The notes under the pieces were generated by a model. That model was not told the DNA's origin, made no database searches, and saw only the letters and a list, made by a program, of their open reading frames with translations. Below are positions 8,109 through 59,367 of a stretch of DNA of 64,000 bases, piece by piece (within the stretch, counting starts at the first letter, position 1; every line of letters starts with the position of its first letter). The translations under genes were made by a program, and so were the position numbers. The DNA comes from Rhizobium sp. BK650 (GTDB taxonomy: Bacteria > Pseudomonadota > Alphaproteobacteria > Rhizobiales > Rhizobiaceae), in NCBI RefSeq assembly GCF_014195325.1, contig NZ_JACIBK010000001.1, positions 434,001-498,000 on the forward strand, given 5' to 3'.

Positions 8109-8402
8109 TTAGAGATCCCGCGTTAGCTGCTGGAGGAAGGCAGCGATCGTTTCTTCGTTGCGCTTGTAGAAAATCCACTGGCCGACGCGCTTGCTGGTGA
8201 CCAAGCCGGCGCGATGAAGGATACCAAGGTGCGAGGACACGGTCGATTGCGAAAGGCCGCAGCGTTCGAACTGGCTAGCACAAACACCCATTTCAAACGG
8301 GTGTTCCTGCGTCGGAAAATGTTCTTCCGGGTTCTTCAGCCAGTTGAGGATGTCCATCCGGGCAGGATTGGCCAGAGCCTTGAGAATCTCGTCTTTGTCC
8401 AT
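8109..8402 (-). CDS. ArsR/SmtB family repressor with two cysteines near the recognition helix
   Basis: This is a winged helix-turn-helix regulator of 97 residues. The helix LKALANPARMDILNWL and the recognition segment LSQSTVSSHLGILHRAGLV are diagnostic, ending in a beta-wing (GQWIFYKRNEE). There is no metal-binding CVC motif. Cys41 and Cys48 instead flank the start of the recognition helix, as in thiol-based redox or electrophile sensors. The start at 8402 gives the usual family length; an upstream extension of 23 codons would cover the promoter. It heads the operon with the MFS and alkene reductase genes and probably represses it, being inactivated by thiol-reactive compounds. That mode of action is an inference. 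Confidence 0.87.
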   Translation of the reverse strand: MDKDEILKALANPARMDILNWLKNPEEHFPTQEHPFEMGVCASQFERCGLSQSTVSSHLGILHRAGLVTSKRVGQWIFYKRNEETIAAFLQQLTRDL

Positions 8403-8426
8403 CGGTCTTGATCGAACTATAAATCG

Positions 8427-8462
8427 GATTTTATCGATATATGGTTCGAAGATTTTCGATAT
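8427..8462 (-). promoter_or_regulatory. Candidate operator/promoter of the ArsR operon
   Basis: An AT-rich stretch 25-60 bases upstream of the ArsR start contains the palindrome TATCGATA (8432-8439) and two related copies, GATTTTATCGATAT and GATTTTCGATAT. Position and symmetry suit an autoregulatory operator. No single promoter could be fixed. Confidence 0.4.
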
Positions 8463-8517
8463 GCAAATCACGGAGGCGTGAGCGATCTTTCTTTTCCGCC
8501 CTGCTTAAAGTTTAAGC

Positions 8518-8632
8518 AAAAAAAAGAGGGCCACTGGAAAACCAGGGCCCTATAAGTGTGAAGGTCAAAAACCTCCAGAGGGGAACAGCCAACGCGGTGG
8601 CACTGGGAGAGAAGCCACCATGTGCATCAGCT
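8518..8632 (-). ncRNA. abcR: AbcR-type small RNA (ar15 family), lsrB-distal copy
   Basis: This trans-acting Hfq-dependent sRNA family silences many ABC-transporter and other uptake mRNAs in Rhizobiales. The minus strand shows a promoter (TTGAAA, 17 bases, CATATC at 8639-8667), a body with the unpaired CTCCCA target-binding motif (plus-strand TGGGAG at 8604-8609) and CCCCTCTGGAGG, and an intrinsic terminator with a GGCCCTGG/CCAGTGGCC stem and eight T residues ending at 8518. The predicted length of about 115 nt matches the family. In S. meliloti the AbcR1/AbcR2 pair lies between an ArsR-type gene and lsrB, as here. I cannot say which copy is AbcR1. The 5' end is inferred from the -10 box. Confidence 0.85.
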
Positions 8633-8638
8633 ACGTGC

Positions 8639-8667
8639 GATATGGTGCTTCTTTGTGCAGCTTTCAA
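8639..8667 (-). promoter_or_regulatory. Sigma-70 promoter of the first AbcR copy
   Basis: On the minus strand, -35 TTGAAA (8662-8667) and -10 CATATC (8639-8644) are 17 bases apart, with the predicted start near 8632. Confidence 0.65.
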
Positions 8668-8677
8668 TAGTTTTTTG

Positions 8678-8694
8678 TGCATGTCAGCTATGCA
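8678..8694 (-). promoter_or_regulatory. Inverted repeat upstream of AbcR copy 1, candidate LsrB/VtlR site
   Basis: TGCAT-N7-ATGCA is a perfect 5+5 inverted repeat of LysR-box form, centred about 54 bases upstream of the predicted sRNA start and 10 bases from the -35 box. The second copy has the same element at the same distance. Confidence 0.55.
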
Positions 8695-8741
8695 CTGCAC
8701 AAAATTTTCCGCATTGCGGTATCTATCGATAAAATTCAGGC

Positions 8742-8857
8742 AAAAAAAGAGGGCCACCGGAAAACCAGGGCCCTTATAAGTGTGAAGGTCAAAAACCTCC
8801 AGAGGGGAACAGCTAATGCGGTGGAACTGGGAGGAAAAGCCACCGTGTGCATCAGCT
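8742..8857 (-). ncRNA. abcR: AbcR-type small RNA (ar15 family), lsrB-proximal copy
   Basis: This is the second tandem AbcR gene, about 225 bases from the first and roughly 85-90% identical over its transcribed part. The promoter is TTGTTG, 17 bases, CATATC (8864-8892), the CTCCCA motif lies at 8828-8833, and the terminator stem GGGCCCTGG/CCGGTGGCCC is followed by seven T residues ending at 8742. Differences cluster in the stretch just 5' of CTCCCA and in the region upstream of the -10 box, as expected if the two RNAs have partly separate control and targets. It is on the same strand as lsrB, about 100 bases downstream of that gene. Numbering as AbcR1 or AbcR2 is not attempted. Confidence 0.85.
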
Positions 8858-8863
8858 ATGAGC

Positions 8864-8892
8864 GATATGGTGCTTTAATGAGCAAACAACAA
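8864..8892 (-). promoter_or_regulatory. Sigma-70 promoter of the second AbcR copy
   Basis: On the minus strand, -35 TTGTTG (8887-8892) and -10 CATATC (8864-8869) are 17 bases apart, with the predicted start near 8857. The -10 box is identical to that of the first copy. Confidence 0.6.
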
Positions 8893-8902
8893 CCCTTTTT
8901 TG

Positions 8903-8919
8903 TGCATGTCAGTCATGCG
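8903..8919 (-). promoter_or_regulatory. Inverted repeat upstream of AbcR copy 2, candidate LsrB/VtlR site
   Basis: TGCAT-N7-ATGCG matches the element of the first copy except for one arm base, and is likewise centred 54 bases before the predicted start. A further TGCATGATGC lies just upstream, at about 8925-8934. Confidence 0.5.
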
Positions 8920-8960
8920 TGAGTTGCATGATGCGGAATTCGCTTCCATAAAAGTGGAAA

Positions 8961-9857
8961 TCAGAAGTTCCAGTTGCGGGCCTTGCTGACGATGAAATCG
9001 CGGAATGCCTTCAGTTTAGCGGCGTTCTTTATCTCGTCCGGGTAGCAGAAATAGGTATCGAAGGAGGGGACGTCGGCATTGATTGCCAGCTGGATCAGAC
9101 CGGGATCGCGGCCGACAATATAATCCGGCAGGCAGGCAATGCCGATGCCGAGCAGGCATGCACGCTTGATCGAGGTCTGGCTGTTGATCTGCAAATGCGG
9201 AATGCGCTTGTTGTCTGAAGAGCGGCCGGCGATTTCCAGCCAGTTTACGTCGAGCAGGTAACTCGGCGCCGGTTCGCCGAAGGTGATGATGCGGTGATTG
9301 TCGAGATCCTCCATCGTCTGCGGCTCGCCGTGGCGGTTGATATAGGAGGGGGCAGCATAGACATGCATATGCACGGTGAAGAGCTTGCGCTGGATGAGAT
9401 CTGACTGCTGAGGCTGGCGAAGGCGGATAGCGCAATCGGCATGGCGCATGTTCACATCCACTTCCTCGTTGTCGAGGATGAGCTGGATCTGAACGTCGGG
9501 ATAGAGCTGCAAGAATTCCTGTATCTTGTCGGTCAGCCAGCCCTGGCCGAGGCCGACTGTCGTGGTGACGCGCAGCTTTCCGGAGGGCGTTTCCGTCGTC
9601 TCGGTCAGCTGCATCTTCACGGTTTCGAGCTTCAGCAGCACGTCATGGGCAGTGCGGTAAAGCAGCTCGCCCTGCTCGGTGAGGATCAGTCCGCGCGCGT
9701 GGCGGTGGAAGAGCTTTGTGCCCACATCCTGCTCGAGCGCGCTGACTTGACGACTGATCGCCGACTGGGACAGATGCAGCTTGTCAGCCGCATGCGTGAA
9801 CGATCCGGCTTCGGCAGCTGCGTGGAAAATGCGCAGCTTGTCCCAGTCCAATGGCAT
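8961..9857 (-). CDS. lsrB: LysR regulator LsrB/VtlR
   Basis: This 298-residue LysR protein has its winged helix at residues 4-65 (WDKLRIFHAAAEAGSFTHAA; LSQSAISRQVSALE) and an effector domain with cysteines at 142, 234, 242 and near 272. Sequence and place match LsrB of S. meliloti, needed for symbiosis and oxidative-stress tolerance and reported to be redox-sensitive, and VtlR of Brucella and Agrobacterium, which activates an AbcR sRNA. The start at 9857 (MPLDWDKL) is the conserved one; an in-frame ATG five codons upstream is possible. It lies 22 bases after trxB on the same strand, so the two are probably co-transcribed, and the two sRNA genes follow it. This neighbourhood links thiol redox, the regulator and its likely RNA targets. 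Confidence 0.9.
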   Translation of the reverse strand: MPLDWDKLRIFHAAAEAGSFTHAADKLHLSQSAISRQVSALEQDVGTKLFHRHARGLILTEQGELLYRTAHDVLLKLETVKMQLTETTETPSGKLRVTTTVGLGQGWLTDKIQEFLQLYPDVQIQLILDNEEVDVNMRHADCAIRLRQPQQSDLIQRKLFTVHMHVYAAPSYINRHGEPQTMEDLDNHRIITFGEPAPSYLLDVNWLEIAGRSSDNKRIPHLQINSQTSIKRACLLGIGIACLPDYIVGRDPGLIQLAINADVPSFDTYFCYPDEIKNAAKLKAFRDFIVSKARNWNF

Positions 9858-9879
9858 TCCCCCACCCCTCATGCCGTTA

Positions 9880-10854
9880 TTACTCCGCTGCTACGGCAAC
9901 GGGCATGTGGCCCGTCAGATAACGCTCTGCCTCGAGTGCGGCCATGCATCCCATGCCCGCGGCGGTGATCGCCTGGCGGAACGTATCATCAGTCACATCG
10001 CCTGCGGCATAGACACCCTCCAGGCTGGTCGCAGTCGAATTCGGTGCGGTCCAGAGATAGCCGTTATCCTTCAGCTTCAGCTTGCCCTTGAAAAGTTCGG
10101 TTGCAGGCGCATGGCCAATCGCCACGAAGACACCGTCGATCGCGATATCGGTGATAGTGCCGGTGCGCGTGTCGCGCAGGCGAGCGCCGGAAACGGACGG
10201 CGGCATGGGGGGCTTTGCCGGTGCGCCAGTGATTTCGGCAACCTCGGTGTTCCAGAGGATTTTGACGTTCCCCTTGGCGAAGAGACGCTCCTGGAGGATT
10301 TTTTCTGCGCGAAACTCATCGCGGCGATGGACGACAGTGACCGACTTCGCGATGTTGGACAGGTAGAGCGCTTCCTCGACGGCGCTGTTGCCGCCGCCGA
10401 CAACGATTACATCCTTGTTGCGATAGAAGAAGCCGTCGCAGGTGGCGCAGGCCGACACGCCGAAGCCCTGGAAATGCTGCTCGCTTTCGATGCCGAGCCA
10501 CTTGGCCTTGGCGCCGGTCGCGATGATCAGCGTATCGGCAGTCCAGACCTGGCCGCTATCGGTGCGGGCGATGAAGGGGCGCTGGTTGAGGTCGACTTCG
10601 GTCACGAGGTCGTTGACGATTTCGGCGCCGACATGCTGGGCCTGCTGCAGCATCTGATCCATCAGCCAGGGACCTTGGATCGGATCGGCAAAACCCGGAT
10701 AATTCTCGACGTCGGTGGTGATCATAAGCTGGCCGCCCTGTTCCAGACCGGCGATCAAAACCGGCTTCAGCATGGCGCGCGCGGCATAGACCGCTGCCGT
10801 ATAACCGGCGGGTCCGGAACCGATGATGAGCACCTTGGTATGGCGGGCAGACAT
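9880..10854 (-). CDS. trxB: Thioredoxin reductase
   Basis: This FAD- and NADPH-dependent cytoplasmic flavoenzyme reduces thioredoxin. The FAD motif GSGPAGYTAAVYAAR is near the N-terminus, the redox-active disulfide CATC is at residues 136-139, the NADPH motif GGGNSAVEEA follows, and the second FAD contact GVYAAGDV is near the C-terminus. The length of 324 residues is normal. The start at 10854 has AAGGA seven to eleven bases upstream; the longer in-frame start has no support. It is divergent from lrp and 22 bases ahead of lsrB on the same strand, an arrangement that suggests redox feedback. Confidence 0.96.
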   Translation of the reverse strand: MSARHTKVLIIGSGPAGYTAAVYAARAMLKPVLIAGLEQGGQLMITTDVENYPGFADPIQGPWLMDQMLQQAQHVGAEIVNDLVTEVDLNQRPFIARTDSGQVWTADTLIIATGAKAKWLGIESEQHFQGFGVSACATCDGFFYRNKDVIVVGGGNSAVEEALYLSNIAKSVTVVHRRDEFRAEKILQERLFAKGNVKILWNTEVAEITGAPAKPPMPPSVSGARLRDTRTGTITDIAIDGVFVAIGHAPATELFKGKLKLKDNGYLWTAPNSTATSLEGVYAAGDVTDDTFRQAITAAGMGCMAALEAERYLTGHMPVAVAAE

Positions 10855-10962
10855 GGAATTTCCTTTCGACTGGGAGGATTCGGCGGCTAAGCAGCGAATA
10901 AGGCCGTTTCGCGATCCCTGCGCCATTTATGAACGACCAATGCTTTTATTCAAGGGCAGCCT

Positions 10963-58959: not shown

Positions 58960-59106
58960 TCAGATACCGAAATCGTCCAGAAACGAGGGATGGATGGCTG
59001 TCTTCCTTGCCTCGCGCGCATCACGGTAGCGCTGCTGGGCAGAACCGATTCCATTAACAAGTCGTCTCATAAGGCCGCCTTTGCGGCGTTTGAAAATCAA
59101 GTGCAT
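58960..59106 (-). CDS. Possible small basic protein (DUF1127-like tail)
   Basis: A 48-codon minus-strand frame encodes a basic peptide ending in SFLDDFGI. Short rhizobial DUF1127 proteins are also Arg-rich and end their core with a similar LDDLGI-type sequence, so it may be a divergent or truncated member. AAAGG lies eight bases before an internal ATG at 59070, which would give a 36-residue product. Homology is thin; alternatively this is non-coding. Confidence 0.35.
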   Translation of the reverse strand: MHLIFKRRKGGLMRRLVNGIGSAQQRYRDAREARKTAIHPSFLDDFGI

Positions 59107-59367
59107 AGCAAGCTCACTTTTTTTATTTTTGTTAGCCGGCGAGCATATAATTTGTGCGTGATGCTGCAACAATGGGCATTTTAGCATGCCACCTATGCAT
59201 AATGTGACAGTGATATGACATTGACGCGGCTCCGTTGCTGGTGGCGCGCAGAGGGCCTTCCTTTCGGGACGATGGCATCGGCCATAGCGGTACTGTAAGA
59301 TGCGGTGTAATCCTTTCGGTAGAGGAGACGAACATGAAGCGGCGGTCTTCATCCTCTTCCGCCGCTC

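Follow-up and report, generated by a model that had tools for sequence, protein, structure and literature searches.

In rhizobia as in Agrobacterium and Brucella, AbcR sRNAs hold nutrient uptake in check. In S. meliloti, the promoter of AbcR1 (PabcR1) has GCAT-N3-TG-N3-T, the LsrB consensus, at -61 to -49 and is bound by LsrB; deleting the consensus cuts reporter activity over 22-fold, and AbcR1 is undetectable in an lsrB mutant (PMC8844928). AbcR2 depends there on RpoH1, whose published consensus is CTTGAA-N16-CCTATAT, and its promoter alignment is reported to show no LsrB motif or further conserved motif (PMC8844928). The two-input model, i.e., AbcR1 controlled by LsrB and AbcR2 by RpoH1, is based on this species. 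In A. tumefaciens, VtlR binds and activates abcR1, atu1667 and vrsA; the authors propose the same box, and its mutation abolishes the expression of vrsA (PMC7486931). In Brucella, the orthologous regulator activates one AbcR sRNA (AbcR2) and three DUF1127 small proteins (PMC12595884). The first-pass annotation of the present DNA also gives as known that VtlR activates an AbcR sRNA in Brucella and Agrobacterium. In addition, oxidation of LsrB favours dimers or tetramers (PMC8844928, PMC10746234).

The window, i.e., the whole 64-kb stretch of DNA that was analysed, belongs to a 6.4-Mb genome in 37 contigs. A set of minus-strand genes in it comprises a thioredoxin-reductase-like gene, lsrB, two ar15/AbcR sRNA genes and an ArsR-family gene:

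9880..10926, minus strand: thioredoxin-reductase-like flavoprotein, upstream of lsrB (Pfam Pyr_redox_2)
8961..9872, minus strand: lsrB, LysR-family regulator (Pfam HTH_1 and LysR_substrate; relatives in 80 named loci)
8745..8857, minus strand: AbcR sRNA copy 1, ar15, in the AbcR1 position proximal to lsrB (Rfam RF02345, 125.3 bits, cut-off 40)
8522..8632, minus strand: AbcR sRNA copy 2, ar15, in the distal AbcR2 position, of AbcR1-like sequence (Rfam RF02345, 116 bits, cut-off 40; trees and AU tests)
8109..8471, minus strand: ArsR-family regulator flanking the sRNA pair (Pfam HTH_5; longest ORF, GTG start)

Both sRNA copies lie above the gathering score of the ar15/AbcR family, and they are the only ar15 matches of Rfam in the whole genome. 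The lsrB orthologue is adjacent to the sRNA pair, and an alternative ATG five codons in may be its true start. As judged by LsrB, the nearest named loci come from many Rhizobium species and from two isolates labelled 'Rhizobiales bacterium', so that the source is most probably a Rhizobium. In A. tumefaciens trxB is likewise a neighbour of vtlR (PMC7486931), and the ArsR gene, the two AbcR genes and lsrB stand in the same order in S. meliloti (PMC8844928).

The promoters of the two copies were read with positions counted from the Rfam ar15 5' ends, 8857 and 8632:

8903..8919, minus strand: predicted LsrB box of AbcR copy 1, CGCATGACTGACATGCA, -62 to -46 (matrix score 27.5; exact GCAT-N3-TG-N3-T)
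8678..8694, minus strand: predicted LsrB box of AbcR copy 2, TGCATAGCTGACATGCA, -62 to -46 (matrix score 27.3; exact GCAT-N3-TG-N3-T)
8864..8892, minus strand: core promoter of copy 1, -35 TTGTTG at 8887-8892 and -10 CATATC at 8864-8869 (sequence; conserved columns)
8639..8667, minus strand: core promoter of copy 2, -35 TTGAAA at 8662-8667 and -10 CATATC at 8639-8644 (sequence; conserved columns)
8926..8928, minus strand: TGC upstream of the copy 1 box, at -71 (sequence; copy 2 has none at -71)
8882..8884, minus strand: TGC at -27 of copy 1, within the -35/-10 spacer, a candidate further half-site
8657..8659, minus strand: TGC at -27 of copy 2 (sequence, conserved columns)

The architecture described in the first-pass annotation is recovered from the sequence and the Rfam ends: each copy has a -10 of CATATC, a 17-base spacer, a -35 box, 10 further bases and then a dyad centred at -54. 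Both dyads have the LysR-type T-N11-A motif, and both contain GCAT-N3-TG-N3-T at about -61 to -49. Since they fit the published consensus at the published place, the box itself is already known, and earlier papers report it, as the LsrB/VtlR box, at AbcR1 (PMC8844928, PMC7486931). The unusual part is the boxed second AbcR copy. The first-pass annotation named neither this point nor a third such promoter in the window, described below. In S. meliloti the box and the need for LsrB are reported at AbcR1 only, AbcR2 having an RpoH1 promoter (PMC8844928); here both copies have the box. The A. tumefaciens locus shares the box, the neighbouring regulator, one activated AbcR and a small hypothetical protein gene as direct target, whereas its abcR2 promoter failed to compete for VtlR (PMC7486931). 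In Brucella, too, one AbcR is named as activated by VtlR (PMC12595884). Our literature search, which covered record listings and selected passages, gave no report of LsrB control or of the box at the second AbcR of Rhizobium.

Overall, we consider an LsrB box on both copies, with LsrB driving both AbcR sRNAs, to be the best explanation, at a probability of roughly 80%. By analogy with published work on relatives, which is the source for LsrB binding, activation, the redox input and the mRNA targets, the circuit would run as follows. LsrB, the activator encoded just upstream, would bind the dyad at about -61 to -47 and would contact or recruit RNA polymerase to a weak core (TTG-N20-CATATC), turning on the AbcR sRNA. 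In the clade of R. leguminosarum, R. etli and R. tropici, both tandem AbcR genes would be of the AbcR1 type and would have an LsrB box of their own, which would put the pair under one redox-responsive regulator. Both sRNAs may then base-pair through two anti-Shine-Dalgarno motifs and silence transporter mRNAs. A simple scan of 8480-8960 gave neither an E. coli-type sigma-70 promoter nor a simple terminator; the lack of the former could suit a weak activator-dependent core, yet gives no support for one.

Further TGC elements accompany the boxes. The one at -71 is found in first copies of the leguminosarum clade (40/40), the tropici clade (2/17) and other genera (59/67), and in none of the 57 Rhizobium second copies, so the two copies may differ in their response. 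The one at -27 is common in Rhizobium, with 109 of 114 rows across both copies, and elsewhere occurs in 52 of 67 first copies and 4 of 26 second copies. As the box arms begin at -61 and -50, the TGC/GCAT elements are spaced by about 11 bases or double that, an arrangement that would suit a LysR-type tetramer on one helix face.

A chance origin of the repeat has to be considered as well, since a dyad allowing one mismatch has 14 matches in the window against a mean of 13.7 in shuffles, i.e., the chance level. This means that exactness and position count, not the bare pattern, and these, together with conservation, rule chance out. The exact TGCAT-N7-ATGCR occurs in the 64 kb at these two places only. 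Moreover, a matrix of 20 columns, built from 67 distinct lsrB-proximal promoters from outside the Rhizobium clade defined below, ranks the two window boxes first and second of 127,962 positions, and the next distinct place scores 16.2 once the opposite-strand readings of the two boxes are set aside. When both strands of the 80 named lsrB loci (549,289 bases) were scanned, 265 of the 276 positions scoring at least 14 were ar15 promoters, with the Rhizobium rows outside the training set and the other first copies being training rows. A looser dyad has 25 matches genome-wide against 3 for a reversed control, whose different base order makes it an unfair null, so this enrichment was left unused.

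Conservation, which the first-pass annotation had proposed as a check, was assessed in the 80 named loci, which were picked by lsrB and of which 69 have two ar15 matches. An enlarged sample, with other genomes of the family added and identical promoters removed, has 129 lsrB-linked loci in all. We use 'Rhizobium clade' for the named loci L055-L111 except L091 and L106, plus G000, G029, G194 and G128; this group of 59 loci, 58 of them with two copies, was defined after the ranking was seen, and it includes R. leguminosarum, R. phaseoli, R. tropici, R. freirei, R. rhizogenes and others. LsrB identity separates the groups imperfectly, since its values in Neorhizobium and in the tropici clade overlap for some rows. 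In 78 of the 80 named loci, the first copy has either the exact dyad or the strict consensus where it is expected; the first copy of a Neorhizobium locus (L132) has neither, yet reaches a matrix score of at least 10.

Among the second copies of the named loci, the dyad or strict consensus is in its expected position in 54 and missing there in 15. All 54 belong to the Rhizobium clade, where every one of the 54 named second copies scores at least 10 and 52 have the exact dyad. At the level of predicted sites, the box precedes both sRNAs in this strain and in 54/54 named two-copy loci of the clade. Counting distinct second copies, a score of at least 10 is reached by 57/57 in Rhizobium, and elsewhere by 3/26 full-length and 0/13 partial ones. 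In the records of Agrobacterium, Neorhizobium and Allorhizobium, either copy 1 alone is boxed or there is a single copy, and eight Rhizobium-labelled records outside the clade (L114, L115, L117, L118, L120, L123, L126, L134) have no boxed second copy. In 37 of 40 leguminosarum-clade second copies the strict consensus is on the opposite strand only, while copy 2 of the window has it on the promoter strand; affinity or geometry could therefore differ.

Besides these loci, ar15 copies unlinked to lsrB (L141, L142, L005, L011, L012 and others) mostly show a GCATAGCTGCATTGCA-type variant of the box at the same place; 15 of the 17 score at least 10, and 16 of the 17 have no TTG at -35. Tandem arrays of three or four ar15 genes after lsrB were also seen (L031 in G100, L014 in G178, L163 in G046), with 9 of 10 copies scoring at least 10.

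The likeness of the two window copies in core, A-tract and sRNA could also mean that the shared repeat is a mere leftover of tandem duplication, kept without selection. The first-pass annotation had argued for selection from differences in the bases between repeat and -35. That argument is weak, because 7 of these 10 bases are identical (the shared CAAAAAA) and only 3 differ; it is the cross-species data that bear the case. Within the window, the two copies share 14 of 17 box positions, while the flanks agree at 16 of 37 (-110 to -74) and 1 of 11 (-73 to -63). Across genomes, the dyad arms hold 1.57 bits in Rhizobium first copies (n=56) and 1.67 bits in the 57 distinct Rhizobium second copies, where the information drops to 0.61 bits at -100 to -74 (range of this comparison region, 0.21-0.61). 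Elsewhere the arms hold 1.50 bits in first copies (n=67) and 0.23 in second copies (n=24), and TTG and CCATAT alone stand out by column information in the non-Rhizobium second copies as a group. The unlinked ar15 copies also keep the box. On all these grounds, we regard an unselected leftover as scarcely credible.

Rhizobia have numerous LysR paralogues, and the boxes of this family are short, which leaves room for a LysR-type regulator other than LsrB as the user of the box. Against this, promoter binding is reported for VtlR at abcR1 in A. tumefaciens (PMC7486931) and for LsrB at PabcR1 in S. meliloti, where the lsrB mutant has no detectable AbcR1 (PMC8844928). Furthermore, the start of copy 1 is 100-218 bases behind lsrB in all of the 80 named loci, which were picked by lsrB. 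Another regulator is thus quite improbable, and the first-pass identification of the repeat as the LsrB box is well supported by the agreement of consensus, position, cross-genus conservation and a matrix trained outside the Rhizobium clade, all of them comparisons at the sequence level.

We further compared the sRNAs themselves. The strings CTCCCAGT and TTCCCCTC, which we take to be the anti-Shine-Dalgarno motifs of ar15/AbcR, are both present in 114/114 distinct Rhizobium rows, including all 57 distinct second copies. Among second copies elsewhere, 13 of the 26 full-length ones lack the first string, and so do all 13 partial ones, for which the 5' ends were extrapolated. The sRNA trees, made from 119 columns, have many open forks and a low resolution. 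For the AU tests, 54 rows were hand-picked from 192 distinct sRNAs, in a set without any record named S. meliloti, and the groups were drawn after the first tree was seen, so the p values are lenient. With this leniency, a single clade of Rhizobium second copies with those of other genera is rejected (p 0.0036), as is a clade of the leguminosarum-group second copies alone with those of other genera (p 0.011). The 54-row tree unites the second copies of the leguminosarum group (93/88) next to the Rhizobium first copies. The five of the tropici group are scattered over it, and two of these share a weak fork with other genera. In a 151-row tree, the leguminosarum-group second copies are joined by one from outside the clade, that of L114, which has a long branch. 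A single clade of first copies is rejected (AU p 0.0027), and one origin for all Rhizobium second copies is mildly rejected (AU p 0.032).

Copy 2 of the window differs from an S. meliloti-type AbcR2 both in the LsrB motif upstream and in an sRNA that stands apart from the second copies of other genera. At the low resolution of these trees, the Rhizobium copy 2 looks like a duplicate of AbcR1, not an orthologue of the RpoH-type AbcR2. The simplest reading is that AbcR1 was duplicated with its promoter, or that an existing copy was homogenised by AbcR1, as gene conversion could imitate duplication. The leguminosarum and tropici pairs may reflect separate duplications or homogenisation.

On the other hand, the promoter of copy 2 could be a hybrid, read by an RpoH-type sigma through TTGAA at -35 and CCATAT at -10, with LsrB as second input; copy 2 would then stay stress-inducible as in S. 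meliloti. Its -35 resembles the published RpoH1 consensus CTTGAA-N16-CCTATAT (PMC8844928), and because TTGAA is shared with that consensus a heat-shock-sigma input may remain. In the leguminosarum clade, 35 of 40 second copies have TTGAA at -35 and none of the 40 first copies does; in the tropici clade the relation is reversed (15/17 first, 0/17 second). The match in the window is partial, however, with ATTGAA at -35 and CCATAT at -10, i.e., an A in place of the first C of CTTGAA, and the same -10 is used by both window copies. TTGAA is also found in 8 of 67 LsrB-type first copies of other genera, so the hexamer is not specific. We judge the hybrid promoter to be unlikely, and retain LsrB control of both copies as the preferred reading. 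If LsrB does drive both, the two-input model fails to transfer to the symbionts of pea, bean and clover. The Rhizobium pair would then also bear on how duplicated sRNAs gain or lose separate inputs.

A search for the full promoter pattern (GCAT-N3-TG-N3-TGC, 9-13 bases, TTG, 18-21 bases, ATA) gave three matches genome-wide: one at each AbcR promoter and one at 59198-59146 of the window. There was none in the reversed control, which is as unfair a null here as for the loose dyad. The third place is about 50 kb from the AbcR pair and precedes a small ORF:

59146..59199, minus strand: predicted third LsrB-box promoter, box 59183-59199, -35 TTGTTG, -10 TTATAT (full-pattern match; matrix)
58960..59106, minus strand: 48-codon ORF P0001 (MHLIFKRRKGG...) behind the third box (ORF listing)

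By matrix, this box is the third-ranking distinct place of the window, scoring 16.2 on the plus strand and 10.9 on the promoter strand. The ORF is present in 15 of 40 Rhizobium genomes, and in 9 of the 15 the strict consensus precedes it at an unchanged offset, the remaining 6 being one base off. A family-wide search matched it in 2 of 151 genomes and in 1 of 109 genera, namely this one. It matches no Pfam family above cut-off (best DUF2973, 14.6 bits against 22.2) and no NCBIfam family. VtlR activates small-protein genes in Agrobacterium and Brucella (PMC7486931, PMC12595884), which makes the ORF a fitting candidate target. Atu1667, a VtlR target in A. tumefaciens and also a small protein, is a possible parallel; unlike the Brucella targets (PMC12595884), the ORF has no Pfam DUF1127 match. 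The promoter pattern also points to more candidate LsrB targets, including this unstudied ORF.

In S. meliloti, NfeR1 has been proven to be a target of LsrB, which binds and activates through TGCA-N6-GCAT, a box related to that of the AbcR genes here and likewise upstream of an anti-SD sRNA (PMC10746234). Unlike here, the box is farther upstream (-72 to -60), NtrC represses, and the sRNA family is ar14 (PMC10746234). The present genome has six ar14 (NfeR1-like) matches, five of them above the Rfam cut-off. Upstream of them, the best sense-strand matrix scores are 4.6 to 18.8, and four of the six (L135, L136, L138, L139; L136 lies at G000 C16:124320) have a box-like sequence no more than 100 bases from the Rfam start. 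We lean slightly towards a broader rewiring, in which a boxed second AbcR1 replaced the stress-sigma AbcR2, LsrB commands both AbcR sRNAs, the NfeR1-like sRNAs and a genus-restricted 48-residue protein, and the RpoH1 branch was lost.

DUF1127 genes were considered as further targets and set aside: for the ten DUF1127 matches in the genome, no upstream region of 300 bases reaches a matrix score of 10 on either strand, the best being 8.0. Two of them, L229 (G000 C10:53171) and L230 (C7:165573), have upstream GCAT-N3-TG-N3-T strings with matrix scores of 0.8 and 8.0, and lie beside or overlap ar14 matches. Finally, another recurrent box promoter was observed in Rhizobium genomes (L189 and L210, in G029 and G220; G205:C1:2946768), in which the box is followed by TTGCGATTATTTATCGC..CGATATA.
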